Source: Exiguobacterium sibiricum 7-3
Lineage (GTDB): Bacteria > Bacillota > Bacilli > Exiguobacteriales > Exiguobacteriaceae
NCBI RefSeq assembly: GCF_000620865.1
Contig: NZ_KK211190.1
Span: 186,001-250,000 of the forward strand
Direction of reading: 5' to 3'
Length of the DNA stretch: 64,000 nt
The notes under the pieces are model-generated. The model was not told the origin of the DNA, did not search any database, and saw only the letters and a list, made by a program, of their open reading frames with translations. This document shows positions 12,986-55,371 of the stretch, one piece after another (position 1 is the first letter of the stretch; every line of letters begins with the position of its first letter). The position numbers and the translations under genes were made by a program.

Positions 12986-13241
12986 GATATCAAACAATCG
13001 ATGACGAAGAAAGTAGCGATATGATTTAATCGGCCAGCGAATCAGGGAACGGTGGAAGCCTGAACAGATTAGACCATCGTGAAACGCACTTCCGAGATGC
13101 TATCCGAATCCATGTGATCAGGCCTAGCCGGGGGACCCCCGTTATCCCCGCTAAAGTGGGTGTCGTACCGTCGACATCAAGAAGAGTGGTACCGCGGTCA
13201 TTCCGTCTCTTTGCGTGTTGCGCAAAGGGCGTTTTTTATTG
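12986..13241 (+). ncRNA. T-box leader controlling argS
   Basis: A tRNA-sensing transcription attenuator. The conserved T-box GTGGTACCGCGG lies at 13186-13197. The terminator stem CTTTGCG/CGCAAAG (13209-13215, 13221-13227) follows, with GTTTTTTATT. In Stem I the sequence before ACTTCCGAG places CGC (13085-13087), an arginine codon, as specifier. Uncharged tRNA-Arg should pair there and with the T-box, permitting read-through into argS. Confidence 0.93.
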
Positions 13242-13269: not shown

Positions 13270-14952
13270 ATGAGTTACAAGCAACAGTATGCCCAAGTAT
13301 TACATGATGTGATCGGTGACGCATTGTCACAAGAAGAAATTGAACAGTTGATCGAACAACCAAAACACGAGGATCACGGAGACCTGGCGTTCCCATGTTT
13401 CCAACTCGCGAAAGCATTCCGCAAAGCACCGATGATGATTGCGACAGAGCTGGCTGAAAAAATCGATAATCCACTATTCTCGAACGTGCAAGCAGCCGGA
13501 CCATACGTGAACGTCTTCTTGAACCGGGAAGTGGTTTCGCGCGAAATCATCAAACGTGTGTTAGAAGAACAACAAGCTTACGGATCAAGCGAAGCGAACG
13601 GCAAAACGATTGTCACGGATTTCTCGTCTCCGAACATCGCAAAACCATTCTCGATGGGACATTTACGTTCGACAGTCATCGGAAACGCATTGAACCAGAT
13701 TTCACGGAAAAAAGGATACGAAGTCGTCGGCATCAACCACCTGGGAGACTGGGGTACACAGTTCGGCAAGTTGATGGTTGCTTACAACATGTGGGGCAAG
13801 GAAGAAGACGTCCGCGCTGAGCCAATCAAAGAATTGTTGAAACTGTATGTCCGTTTCCATGAAGAAGCGGAAGAAAATCCGGCTCTTGAAGATGAAGGGC
13901 GGGCTTGGTTCAAAAAACTCGAACAGGGTGACGAACAAGCGACGACACTTTGGACATGGTTCCGTGAAGTTTCGCTTGTCGAATTCAACCGTGTGTATGA
14001 AATGCTGGGTGTCAGTTTCGACAGCTTGAACGGTGAAGCCTTCTATAATGATAAGATGCAGCACGTCATCGATTTATTAGAAGAAAAAGAGTTGCTCGTC
14101 GAGTCGGAAGGCGCCATGGTCGTCGACCTCGAAGCTGAAGGAATGCCTCCTGCTTTGATCAAGAAAAAAGACGGTGCGACATTATACGCGACACGCGATT
14201 TGGCTGCTGCCGTCTATCGTCTTGAGACATACGGTTTTGAGCAAGCCTTTTATGTTGTCGGTGGCGAACAAGCCCTTCACTTTAAACAGCTGTTTGCTGT
14301 TCTGAAGAAACTTGGTTTTGAAAATGTCGACGGTATGCACCATGTCCCGTTTGGTCTGATCATGAAAGACGGGAAAAAGATGTCGACACGTAAAGGACGG
14401 ATTGTCCTTCTCGAAGAAGTGCTTCAAGATGCAATCAATGTCGCGAAACAAAACATCGCTGAGAAAAATCCGAACCTTGCCAATGCCGAACAGACGGCAC
14501 GCGAAGTCGGTGTCGGTGCTGTCATTTTCCATGATTTAAAAAATGAGCGCATGAACAACATTGAATTCGATTTGGAGCAAATGTTGAAATTTGAAGGAGA
14601 AACAGGTCCATACGTCCAATATACGAATGCACGGGCAAATTCATTATTACGTAAAGGCGAATATGATGGATCAGCATTTGCCGGTAGTGCAGACGACTAT
14701 TCATGGGGTGTCGTCTCGATGCTGAACCAGTTCTCGACAGTGATTGACCGGGCGTTTACACGTCGCGAACCATCGATCATCAGCCGTTATGTCCTTGATT
14801 TAGCTCAAAGCTTCAACAAATATTACGGACAGGTTCGTGTCCTCGAAGACGATGCGGAAAAACAATCTCGCCTCGCGCTCGTAAAATCGGTTACGATTGT
14901 ATTGACGGAAGGATTACGCCTGCTCGGTGTCGGCGCTCCAGAAGAAATGTAA
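13270..14952 (+). CDS. argS: Arginyl-tRNA synthetase
   Basis: A class I aminoacyl-tRNA synthetase of 560 residues that charges tRNA-Arg. An N-terminal additional domain (EDHGDLAFPCFQLAK) leads to the HIGH-type motif SMGHL at 128-132. WGTQFGKL is part of the catalytic fold. The KMSKS-type loop reads KMSTR near 370-374, and GPYVQYTNARANSLLRK is followed by the helical anticodon-binding domain. It is preceded by a T-box with an Arg specifier and a TTTGGAGGA ribosome site. The next gene starts 30 bp downstream and is probably co-transcribed. Confidence 0.98.
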   Translation: MSYKQQYAQVLHDVIGDALSQEEIEQLIEQPKHEDHGDLAFPCFQLAKAFRKAPMMIATELAEKIDNPLFSNVQAAGPYVNVFLNREVVSREIIKRVLEEQQAYGSSEANGKTIVTDFSSPNIAKPFSMGHLRSTVIGNALNQISRKKGYEVVGINHLGDWGTQFGKLMVAYNMWGKEEDVRAEPIKELLKLYVRFHEEAEENPALEDEGRAWFKKLEQGDEQATTLWTWFREVSLVEFNRVYEMLGVSFDSLNGEAFYNDKMQHVIDLLEEKELLVESEGAMVVDLEAEGMPPALIKKKDGATLYATRDLAAAVYRLETYGFEQAFYVVGGEQALHFKQLFAVLKKLGFENVDGMHHVPFGLIMKDGKKMSTRKGRIVLLEEVLQDAINVAKQNIAEKNPNLANAEQTAREVGVGAVIFHDLKNERMNNIEFDLEQMLKFEGETGPYVQYTNARANSLLRKGEYDGSAFAGSADDYSWGVVSMLNQFSTVIDRAFTRREPSIISRYVLDLAQSFNKYYGQVRVLEDDAEKQSRLALVKSVTIVLTEGLRLLGVGAPEEM

Positions 14953-36316: not shown

Positions 36317-36520
36317 TATAATGAAACAGAGAACTAAACGAAAGGGTGGAAACCGATGGATACCGAGAGGATCGATCATCTATTCAGCTTACCTGATTTT
36401 TAGCAGTGCCAATCTTCATTGAACAGGAAGGTAATGGCTTGAAAAAAATCAGGGAGAGCGAAAATAGATGAATACCCAAACGGGACAACTACAATCTCTC
36501 CCATGGAAGATACGGGAGAG
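36317..36520 (+). promoter_or_regulatory. Structured leader of the YitT-family gene with two-step attenuation architecture
   Basis: TATAAT at 36317-36322 starts the unit. Hairpin 1 pairs CCTGATTTTT (36392-36401) with AAAAATCAGG (36444-36453), with inner stems GCCA/TGGC and CTTC/GAAG. Its 5' arm covers the end of leader ORF 1; its 3' arm touches GGGAGAG (36452-36458), the ribosome site of leader ORF 2. Hairpin 2 pairs CTCTCCC (36496-36502, inside leader ORF 2) with GGGAGAG (36514-36520), the ribosome site of the YitT gene. CTCTCCC can instead pair with the first GGGAGAG. Translation of each leader would therefore open the next ribosome site. Confidence 0.6.
36356..36403 (+). CDS. Leader peptide ORF 1 (15 aa)
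   Basis: ATG at 36356 with AAAGGGTGG eight bases ahead, stop TAG 36401. It encodes MDTERIDHLFSLPDF. The last codons form the 5' arm of hairpin 1, so a ribosome stalled or terminating there would unfold it. Length and placement resemble the first leader peptide of ermA-type attenuators. Whether it is translated is not shown. Confidence 0.5.
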   Translation: MDTERIDHLFSLPDF

Positions 36521-36599
36521 GACAATAACACATGAAACGAATCATAACCATCTTAAGCGGAACGCTACTTATGGCGTTCGGCTACTACACCTTGAATGA
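36468..36599 (+). CDS. Leader ORF 2 overlapping the YitT-family gene (43 aa)
   Basis: ATG at 36468, GGGAGAG nine bases ahead, stop TGA at 36597 inside the YitT-family gene in another frame. Its codons for QSLP contain the CTCTCCC arm of hairpin 2. Translation would melt that hairpin and expose the ribosome site of the next gene. The product, starting MNTQTGQLQSLPWKIRERTI, is probably not functional as a protein; coupling is the likely role. Confidence 0.4.
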   Translation: MNTQTGQLQSLPWKIRERTITHETNHNHLKRNATYGVRLLHLE

Positions 36600-37146
36600 A
36601 CAATTTGGATTAGCAGAAGGCGGATTTATCGGTCTGTCTTTACTCGGACGTTACTTTTTTGACATTAATCCATCGATTTCGATGATCGTACTCGACATTC
36701 CGTTTTTTATCGGAGCGTTATATTTTAAAGGAAAACGTTTTGTCAGTGAAGCACTCGTATCGGCAGGCGCATTGTCGCTGTTTTACGAAATGTGGTACCG
36801 ACTGGATCTGTTTCATTTTCCGGAACAGGCATGGCCGGCAACACTGATTGCTGCTGTCGCCAGTGGAATCGTGACCGGCTATGGTCTTGGTCTCGTTCTG
36901 AAAAGTGGCGCGGCAACAGGAGGAGACGATTTGTTGTCGATGGGCCTCAGTAAGCTGACCGGCTTATCAATCGGGACGATTTTATTTGGTCTTGATGCCA
37001 TCGTCCTTGTCATCTCACTCGTCTATCTGCCGTTGAGTTTAACGTTGTATACGTTGCTCGCAGTCGCGATTGCGGGACGTGTCGTCTCGGTCATGACACG
37101 CGAACCGGTTACTGCACCGGCTGCTGCGGTAGCTGAACTGAAATGA
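36532..37146 (+). CDS. YitT/YczE-family membrane protein
   Basis: A 204-residue protein with five or six membrane segments, of the YitT (PF02588/DUF161) type. The characteristic LNEQFGLAEGGFIGLSLLGRYFFDINPSISMIVLDIPFFIGALYFKGKRF block opens it and GLGLVLKSGAATGGDDLLSMGLSKLTGLSIGTILFGLDAIVL follows. Unlike long YitT proteins it lacks the C-terminal DUF2179 domain. The substrate of the family is not known. The ribosome site GGGAGAGG is sequestered in a hairpin, so expression is probably conditional. Followed by a terminator. Confidence 0.8.
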   Translation: MKRIITILSGTLLMAFGYYTLNEQFGLAEGGFIGLSLLGRYFFDINPSISMIVLDIPFFIGALYFKGKRFVSEALVSAGALSLFYEMWYRLDLFHFPEQAWPATLIAAVASGIVTGYGLGLVLKSGAATGGDDLLSMGLSKLTGLSIGTILFGLDAIVLVISLVYLPLSLTLYTLLAVAIAGRVVSVMTREPVTAPAAAVAELK

Positions 37147-53841: not shown

Positions 53842-53881
53842 TACAAGACCCGTCGCAAAAGCGACGGGTCTTGTATTTTTT
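53842..53881. terminator. Bidirectional terminator
   Basis: CAAGACCCGTCGC / GCGACGGGTCTTG stem with loop AAAA, then TATTTTTTA. The T-run overlaps the stop region of the convergent NhaC-family gene. Confidence 0.9.
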
Positions 53882-55187
53882 ACGAAACATTTTTTTTACG
53901 CACATCAGCTGTTTTTCGACGCGGGAAGCCGAAGACGATGGCAAGAGATCCGCAAACGAAAAGCAGGAACGGATAAAACAGATAGGGAATCAGTTCCGGG
54001 GAAGCCGTTTTCGTTAATTCCGCTGCAATCAGCAACTGGGCTCCGTAAGGGATAATTCCTTGGATACCGCACGAGAAGATGTCGAGAATACTGGCGGATT
54101 TCTTCCGATCAATATCATACGTATCGGCGATTTCCGCAGCGAGTGGTCCGGCGACAAGAATCGAAATCGTATTGTTCGCTGTCGCGAGATTCGTTGCACT
54201 GACGAGTGCCGCCATACTGAATTCCGCACCGCGGCGTTGTGAGATTTTCCGCGTCAGCGTTTCTTTCAGGTAAGCAATCCCGCCGTTAAAGGTGATTAGG
54301 CTGACGAGTCCGCCCATTAATAACGTCAAAATCGAAATTTCTGCCATCCCCATCAATCCTTCAGACATCGACAGGACGAAGCCGCTTAAGCCGAAGCTTC
54401 CGTCAATCATACCGATGATTCCCGTCAAAACGGTTCCGCCGACTAAGACGAGGATGACGTTGACACCAAACAAGGCGAGGACGATGACAGACAGATACGG
54501 AATCAATTTATAAAACTCAAACGCTTTTGCTTCGACGACGTCTCCTGTACCTGAGACGAAAGCCAAGATGATGACCGTCAGGATTGCTGCCGGCAAGACG
54601 ATCATGAAGTTGGTTCGGAATTTATCGCGCATGTTGGTTTTTTGCGTCCGTACCGCTGCAATCGTTGTATCGGAAATGAACGACAAGTTATCGCCGAACA
54701 TTGCACCACCGACGACAGCTGCTGCGGCAATTGCGACATTGACACCGGTTGCTTCATGGATTCCGAGAGCAATCGGTGCAAGTGCTGCGATCGTACCGGT
54801 GGAAGTACCCATCGCCATCGAGATGAAGGCGGCGATGATGAACAGCCCGCTCATCAAGAGGGACGGGGGTAAAAATGTTAATGATGCATTGACGGTCGCT
54901 TCAATTGCGCCGATTGCATCTGCCGTTCCAGAAAAGGCACCGGCGAGTAGGAAGATAAAGACCATAATCATGATGTCCGGATTTCCGGCCCCCGTCGCAA
55001 TCCGTTCCACGGTTTGATTGATGCTGCCCTTTGTTGTGACCGCCGCAAAAATCAAGGCAATCAAAGCAGCAATCAGAATCGGGAATTTGTAAAAATCATT
55101 GTAAAAAATTCCGGCACCGATAAAAAGAACTAAAAAGACAAGCAACGGTAGAAGTGCCCATTTGTTCGGTGTAATCGTCTCGTTCAT
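53880..55187 (-). CDS. NhaC-family transporter under SAM riboswitch, probable methionine transporter (MetT type)
   Basis: A 435-residue protein with 11-12 membrane segments of the NhaC antiporter superfamily: AMGTSTGTIAALAPIALGIHEATG and GGAMFGDNLSFISDTTIAAVRTQ are the family signatures, repeated in FNGGIAYLKETLTRK and CGIQGIIPYGAQLLI. Annotation as Na+/H+ antiporter would be routine, but the S-box riboswitch in its leader shows control by S-adenosylmethionine. NhaC-type S-box transporters have been predicted as methionine transporters (MetT), which is my preferred call. Ribosome site AAAGGAG before ATG 55187. Single gene. Confidence 0.85.
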   Translation of the reverse strand: MNETITPNKWALLPLLVFLVLFIGAGIFYNDFYKFPILIAALIALIFAAVTTKGSINQTVERIATGAGNPDIMIMVFIFLLAGAFSGTADAIGAIEATVNASLTFLPPSLLMSGLFIIAAFISMAMGTSTGTIAALAPIALGIHEATGVNVAIAAAAVVGGAMFGDNLSFISDTTIAAVRTQKTNMRDKFRTNFMIVLPAAILTVIILAFVSGTGDVVEAKAFEFYKLIPYLSVIVLALFGVNVILVLVGGTVLTGIIGMIDGSFGLSGFVLSMSEGLMGMAEISILTLLMGGLVSLITFNGGIAYLKETLTRKISQRRGAEFSMAALVSATNLATANNTISILVAGPLAAEIADTYDIDRKKSASILDIFSCGIQGIIPYGAQLLIAAELTKTASPELIPYLFYPFLLFVCGSLAIVFGFPRRKTADVRKKNVS

Positions 55188-55205: not shown

Positions 55206-55371
55206 CGTGTACAAAAAAAGACTCCTTCGCAAGAAAGAAGGAGGTCTTTACTGAAAAAGACGCTCTTCTTATCTCTCAAGCCTCAGCTTGCTGGATTTGG
55301 CACAGTACGATTTAATCGTCCGCTGCCGAAACATCATCGGGCCAGTCCCTCCGTCTCTCGCGATAAAAAGA
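55206..55371 (-). ncRNA. SAM-I (S-box) riboswitch with terminator
   Basis: Minus strand. P1 pairs TCTTTTTATC (55371-55362) with GATAAGAAGA (55273-55264). Between them are the conserved GGAGGGACTGGCCC, GGCAGC and GTGCCAAATCC elements and GAGAGATAAG. A terminator with AAGACTCCTTC/GAAGGAGGTCTT stem and seven U follows at 55211-55250. SAM binding should favour termination, so the transporter is made when SAM is low. Confidence 0.95.

Follow-up and report, generated by a model that had tools for sequence, protein, structure and literature searches.

Organization of the yitT leader

The window, a stretch of 64,000 nucleotides from Exiguobacterium sibiricum 7-3, carries a gene of the YitT family preceded by a leader with two short open reading frames, termed ORF1 and ORF2, and four arms that can pair with one another. 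The arrangement of these elements is as follows, with positions numbered along the window.

36317..36322, + strand: probable -10 box TATAAT (identified by eye; the surrounding stretch is kept in most of the genus)
36342..36349, + strand: Shine-Dalgarno (SD) region of ORF1 (from sequence and alignments)
36356..36403, + strand: ORF1, leader peptide MDTERIDHLFSLPDF, with the stop UAG followed by C (kept in 37 of 37 relatives)
36392..36401, + strand: arm 1, within the end of ORF1 and its stop codon (10 of 10 pairs with arm 2)
36444..36453, + strand: arm 2, the partner of arm 1 (inverted repeat)
36452..36458, + strand: GGGAGAG, the SD of ORF2 and the part of arm 2 able to pair with arm 3
36468..36599, + strand: ORF2, MNTQTGQLQSLPWKIRERTITHETNHNHLKRNATYGVRLLHLE, 43 codons, with its start between arms 2 and 3
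36496..36502, + strand: arm 3, CTCTCCC, the partner of either arm 4 or arm 2 (inverted repeats)
36514..36522, + strand: arm 4 with the yitT SD (GGGAGAGGA), arm 4 proper being 36514-36520
36532..37146, + strand: yitT-family gene encoding a membrane protein of 204 amino acids (PF02588)

The original prediction of a two-step leader-peptide attenuator had placed ORF1, ORF2 and the hairpin arms at coordinates that prove exact on translation and on a mechanical repeat search, which returns the inverted repeats 36392-36401/36444-36453 (10/10 pairs), 36452-36458/36496-36502 (7/7) and 36496-36502/36514-36520 (7/7). CTCTCCC can, as had been proposed, pair with either GGGAGAG copy, with seven of seven pairs formed both ways. 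ORF2 crosses the yitT start (36532) in a different frame. The region 36385-36545 has a fold energy of -45.6 kcal/mol, whereas 200 shuffled versions average -26.3 and none of them reaches the real value (z -5.54), and in the window leader free of ribosomes the yitT SD has a predicted unpaired probability of about 0.00. The TATAAT sequence at 36317..36322 is absent from the sites given by a promoter scan of the window. Arms 2 and 4 with their SD sequences (36445-36458 and 36507-36520) form a 14-nt direct repeat with 79% identity, which would suit a duplication of the hairpin module.

A consensus scan of the window gives no terminator-like site on the + strand from 36317 to 36532. Transcription attenuation by an intrinsic terminator in this leader was accordingly rejected, and control, if any, most likely takes place at translation. 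Two other regulatory leaders are found in the window, a T-box leader (Rfam RF00230, 98.4 bits) at 12992-13213 on the + strand just before ORF 13270-14952, which we take to be an arginyl-tRNA synthetase gene, and a SAM riboswitch (RF00162, 81.7 bits) at 55266-55369 on the - strand ahead of a large transporter-like ORF at 53880-55187 on the same strand.

The assignment of the downstream gene to the YitT family is borne out by its match to the profile PF02588 YitT_membrane (121.8 bits against a curated cut-off of 24.3; E 3.2e-35). No function for the protein was obtained from neighboring genes, fold or sequence searches. The neighbors differ at the four loci checked (flavohaemoglobin-like, MsrAB-like, TIR, Amj, MFS, OTCase, PTS and rhodanese), Foldseek with an AlphaFold2 model (pLDDT 78.8) gives no match at E <= 0.001, the sequence finds no relative among solved structures at E <= 1, and NCBIfam yields only partial matches far below the cut-offs. 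Four of the top six rows of VIA-align 2 are or resemble ECF transporter S components, with Z values of 4.7-5.3 that lie below the trustworthy level of that method.

Conservation of the leader peptide and its stop

ORF1 is located ahead of this yitT gene in all 37 genomes of the window's family examined (19 from the genus, 18 from the sister genus), and it ends in LPDF-UAG-C in every one. The peptide reads MDTERxxHLF[SGA]LPDF in the genus and MDTER[TA]WPLFQLPDF in the sister genus. When ORF1 is placed by its first five codons only, an anchor outside the tested codons, TAGC is the stop and next base in 37 of 37 leaders, and of the 20 changes at codons 6 to 15 of the 17 distinct sequences 11 are synonymous, compared with an expected synonymous share of 22% (P 0.0015, relatedness not corrected). 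Variation at codons 9, 10 and 12 to 15 is exclusively synonymous. A TAG stop occurs in none of the 49 large mechanical ORFs of the window. The ORF1 DNA of the window, compared with 41 relatives, has a single strong match per genome, located at yitT, in the 19 members of the genus; the six members of the sister genus in this sample give short, weak pieces only. The start and SD of ORF2 are kept within the family while the ORF2 peptide changes; outside the family the frame and end of ORF2 are variable.

The conservation in relatives to which the original prediction had been tied is therefore found for ORF1 and its stop, for the start and SD of ORF2 and for the pairing logic described below. The triplet Ser-Leu-Pro, to which attention had been drawn in both peptides, is indeed present twice in this sequence, with Leu-Pro of ORF2 encoded by the pairing sequence CTCTCCC. 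It does not extend to relatives, in which ORF2 has PLP, RPLR or no such triplet, and a conserved Ser-Leu-Pro in both peptides was rejected.

A second type of ORF1 is found beyond the window's family. A scan for YitT relatives gave 183 places, and the best 80, which were kept, are by title from Paenibacillus and close kin apart from one Bacillus sp. Among these best 80 of 183, all 80 loci have a leader ending in WKR-x-DLSY[TI]-UAG-C (with small variations) ahead of the related yitT, as part of a 21-codon ORF1 that ends RTIWKR[YFC]D[LH]SYT-TAG and starts 205 to 281 nt upstream of the YitT match. With ORF1 placed through the sequence preceding its start codon, again outside the tested codons, TAGC is the stop and next base at 80 of these 80 loci; 12 of 344 ORFs of the Paenibacillus-type loci have it. 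Codons 10 to 21 of the 31 distinct sequences show 10 synonymous changes and 3 others where 23% synonymous is expected (P 5.4e-5, relatedness not corrected).

R1, a sequence-only model of the IWKR-type ORF1 built from 25 Paenibacillus-type loci and G057, has hits at E <= 0.01 in 73 of the 398 class members sampled, and in 69 of these the hit reaches E <= 1.1e-5. The Paenibacillus-type family accounts for 36 of the 69, and the other 33 are spread over four families; of these, 18 were read, including G057, itself part of the model, and in all 18 a leader with the WKR-x-DLSY[TI]-UAG-C ending, small variations aside, lies ahead of a yitT-like gene. Three of the four weak matches were read, and none of the three is so placed. 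Of 148 genomes from the Paenibacillus-type family, 77 contain the gene (E <= 1e-35), and precisely these 77 also contain the leader (E <= 0.01), which lies on the strand of the gene and ends 142-220 nt before the gene match. Both ORF1 types have in common an AGG codon, usually with Thr encoded by the next codon, together with L at -4 and UAGC, and most peptides of both types have an aromatic residue at -6. Since R1 misses the window's own ORF1, it is from position, architecture and this partial motif that we infer a common descent of the two types as one family.

In record L225 (G490:C75:68365-68541) ORF1 is present twice in tandem, as MFPQSIWKRQDLSYT and MFPHFIWKRHDLSYT, and to the eye both copies have a hairpin ahead of the next ribosome site, an apparent duplication of the module.

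A wider set of 162 leader records was chosen by peptide pattern and TAG, which is why the stop and the residues W, K, D and S (L-F-x-L-P-D-F in the window type) are constant in it. The C after the stop, present in 162 of 162, is the sole feature of that set free of selection. The codon counts derived from it, 12 to 9 and 20 to 22, carry the same bias, and the codon test was for this reason redone with the outside anchors used above. The leaders are moreover related by descent, so that the counts are not independent.

The AGG codon raises the possibility of arginine or tRNA attenuation, in which the ribosome would stall at this rare codon for want of charged tRNA. AGG, the codon of Arg5 in ORF1, makes up 1.8% of Arg codons in the ORFs of the window and 7.4% in those of the Paenibacillus-type loci, yet at this Arg it is used in all 33 and in 123 of the 129 distinct leader records. 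The leading edge of a ribosome halted at AGG (36368-36370), taken at about +16 from an assumed footprint, stops short of arm 1 (36392), and hairpin 1 would thus stay unopened. Conservation is likewise seen for the residues and the stop towards the end of ORF1, and 6 of the 129 records do without AGG at that Arg. Control through arginine supply is on these grounds improbable.

Constraint on the RNA itself is suggested by two features of the Paenibacillus-type leaders. The 17-nt stretch GAAAGGATCAGGATACC directly 5' of the ORF1 start is the same throughout the distinct leader segments listed (L097-L176), and several ORF1 codons are invariant even at silent sites. Both would suit a regulator made of RNA only, such as a riboswitch or thermosensor with the ORFs as by-products. 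A by-product ORF would not be expected to show the synonymous excess and unvarying UAGC of ORF1, and the window's family lacks the 17-nt stretch, having a related sequence, GGATACC..AGGA, inside ORF1. A riboswitch of known family was rejected, there being no Rfam match at gathering score for the leader of the window, which gives just three matches far below the gathering scores, or for that of L097, which gives none up to E 5. An RNA-only regulator is accordingly rated as very improbable.

Compensatory change and alternative pairing

Covariation of the paired arms, which the original prediction had called for in an alignment of related leaders, is found in hairpin 1. The count covers 35 of the 37 family leaders, with 17 from each genus and one intermediate (L010 and L029 left out), and the partner of arm 1 was taken as the best-fitting segment of the 3' stretch. 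Arm 1 differs between the genera at three third codon positions, in Pro, Asp and Phe codons, and all three differences are synonymous. The partners in the untranslated arm 2 change too, converting T-A to G-C, T-A to C-G and T-A to C-G. The remaining seven pairs comprise four without change, two that turn into G-T and one that the sister genus has lost (A-A); the intermediate, L019, has one double change and one G-G mismatch. Shuffled stretches have an equal pair number in 67, 271 and 24 of 5000 trials. With silent changes in arm 1 matched in arm 2, the ORF1 peptide and the pairing appear to be selected together.

The alternative pairings recur in computed duplexes of arms 1:2, 3:4 and 2:3, for which 157 records were used (four without an assigned ORF2 start and the other L225 record were left out, as in the switch and relay analyses below). 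The best duplex energies are -18.9, -17.5 and -14.1 in the window's genus compared with -9.8, -8.8 and -7.8 for shuffles, -24.4, -24.6 and -27.1 compared with -15.7, -17.1 and -17.0 in 107 Paenibacillus-type leaders, and -20.3, -23.5 and -22.2 compared with -12.9, -13.5 and -13.2 in 17 others. In the same order, the duplexes surpass 95% of shuffles in 100%, 100% and 100% of the 17 genus leaders, in 71, 59 and 78% of the 107 Paenibacillus-type leaders and in 41, 88 and 71% of the 17 others. The sister genus (16 leaders) is weaker, with 1:2 beyond 95% of shuffles in 44% and 3:4 and 2:3 in none. The sequences of the arms differ among the groups while the three pairings are retained, weakly so in the sister genus.

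Hairpins of this kind might also act without any switch, fixing a constant low expression of yitT or stabilizing the mRNA, and the neighboring genes at the four loci checked offer no hint. A constant level needs neither a conserved peptide nor an invariant UAG-C nor alternative pairings, and such a static role has little probability.

With a ribosome modeled on the ORF1 stop, arm 2 exchanges arm 1 for arm 3 as its partner. In nascent RNA lacking arm 4, a gain of three or more 2:3 pairs is seen in 13/17 leaders of the genus (shuffles 5/85), 15/16 of the sister genus (15/80), 81/107 of the Paenibacillus type (49/200) and 12/17 of the others (13/85), so that the 1:2 to 2:3 switch is present in the computed folds of other families also. 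The outcome at equilibrium is different. The yitT SD of the window's family is 0.02 unpaired (shuffles 0.30) and remains at 0.02 with the ribosome at the ORF1 stop; outside the family the same ribosome changes it little, from 0.19 to 0.26 and from 0.21 to 0.30, with a rise of over 0.2 in 16/110 and 3/19 leaders and a fall in 6 and 0. Since the ORF1-stop ribosome hardly opens the yitT SD at equilibrium, opening by way of 2:3 pairing would need co-transcriptional folding.

A strict relay, in which ORF1 merely opens ORF2, translation of ORF2 opens yitT and the 2:3 pairing is incidental, was considered against these folds. Within the window's family the ORF2 SD opens from 0.28 to 0.63 once a ribosome is placed at the ORF1 stop, a rise of over 0.2 in 33 of 33 leaders, and a ribosome within ORF2 raises the yitT SD by over 0.2 at its best position in 33 of 33, with a mean of 0.39 over ORF2 codons 4-9. 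The full relay criterion, an SD shut at first and then opened at both steps, is reached by 94% of the 33 leaders compared with 13% of 198 shuffles. The retention of the ORF2 start and SD despite a changing peptide and the two tandem copies of ORF1 in L225 are also in keeping with a relay. Opening of the ORF2 SD as such is frequent in the family's shuffles too (0.26 to 0.52), in which a ribosome in ORF2 leaves the yitT SD as open (0.44), and the contrast with shuffles arises largely because the real yitT SD is so tightly shut (0.02 compared with 0.30). By a looser measure the first step is found elsewhere in 37/107 and 5/18 leaders and the second in 77/107 and 15/18; by the full criterion none of 40 sampled leaders of other families passes, as is the case for 0 of 240 of their shuffles, making the criterion uninformative outside the window's family. 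The frame and end of ORF2 vary there, and 2:3 complementarity, for which a pure relay has no need, is kept with different sequences. The relay of the original prediction is thus upheld by modeled folding in the window's family only, and a strict relay is somewhat unlikely.

Proposed control and comparison with known leaders

Taken together, the conservation, the coding pattern, the compensatory pairing and the alternative pairing in computed folds indicate that the leader is probably a translational attenuator of yitT, with erm-like logic, a new leader peptide and a new target. By default ORF1 would be translated with quick release of the ribosome, leaving 1:2 and 3:4 paired and the yitT ribosome site shut. 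A ribosome lingering with the ORF1 stop UAG-C in its A site would cover arm 1 and free arm 2. From this state two routes may lead to control in the direction of yitT expression. In route A, 2:3 pairing before arm 4 is made would keep arm 4 and the yitT SD open, as in an erm/trp-type switch. In route B, the freed ORF2 SD would admit a ribosome to ORF2, where it would melt arm 3 and free the yitT SD in the manner of a relay. In the folding models route A is compatible with all groups tested and route B is supported in the window's family only. With conserved residues extending to a UAG stop that has C as its next base, slow or blocked release at ORF1 is the leading idea; lingering would then arise from the conserved C-terminal part of the ORF1 peptide together with the UAG-C stop, possibly with a small molecule.

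Well-studied leader-peptide attenuators mostly have antibiotic-resistance or amino-acid genes as their targets. In ermC the arms form hairpins 1:2 and 3:4 with the alternative 2:3, and the present leader shares with ermA and ermC the short leader ORF or ORFs, this set of pairings and the placement of the target SD in the last arm. As in erm-type leaders, ORF1 lies just upstream, has an SD and shows conserved coding, and the computed folds contain mutually exclusive hairpins with the yitT SD sequestered in the last arm, although 3:4 and 2:3 do no better than shuffles among the sister-genus leaders. The comparison of the original prediction with ermA is apt, as PMC8274638 gives an equivalent two-step scheme as one of two models, in which stalling on ermAL1 activates ermAL2 and stalling on ermAL2 leads to ermA; the present leader likewise has two leader ORFs. 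Unlike in ermA and ermC, the target is a PF02588 YitT_membrane protein and no Erm rRNA methyltransferase, the ORF2 peptide is not conserved, no drug is known, and conservation centers on the end of ORF1 with UAG-C in place of an internal drug-stall site.

Arrest at the ORF1 stop is suggested by the conserved final residues and UAGC. The residues W12 and D16 are described for TnaC in PMC10941005, and the IWKR type resembles TnaC in its W-x3-D spacing and in having conserved residues up to the stop. The W of the IWKR type is placed 8 residues before the last codon and not 12, the peptide ends in T or I (F in the window type) where TnaC has its final Pro (P24), and the window peptide has no W, so that the set W12, D16 and P24 is not reproduced. 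MsrDL also blocks its own termination, according to PMC10314930, and differs in acting on a transcription terminator, a feature not seen in the window leader.

A stop codon followed by a conserved C within a regulatory device is known from the RF2 gene prfB, whose autoregulatory frameshift site is UGA-C. Here the stop is UAG, which is read by RF1, and the target is not a release factor. The likeness raises the idea, speculative and rather unlikely, that ORF1 is a termination sensor whose UAG-C-ended peptide gauges the action of release factor 1 or a release-blocking compound and turns on YitT. If so, YitT would be part of a response to ribosome trouble, as UGA-C in prfB senses RF2, and a conserved leader-peptide family would tie the release of UAG-ended peptides to a YitT membrane protein.

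Among the matches listed, no open PubMed Central title or abstract start describes this leader. On the reading of the leader as a translational attenuator, a conserved peptide with an invariant UAG-C appears to control a membrane-protein family lacking a known role. The WKR-x-DLSY[TI]-stop peptide is a candidate new arrest peptide, and what stalls ORF1 would point to what this YitT handles.
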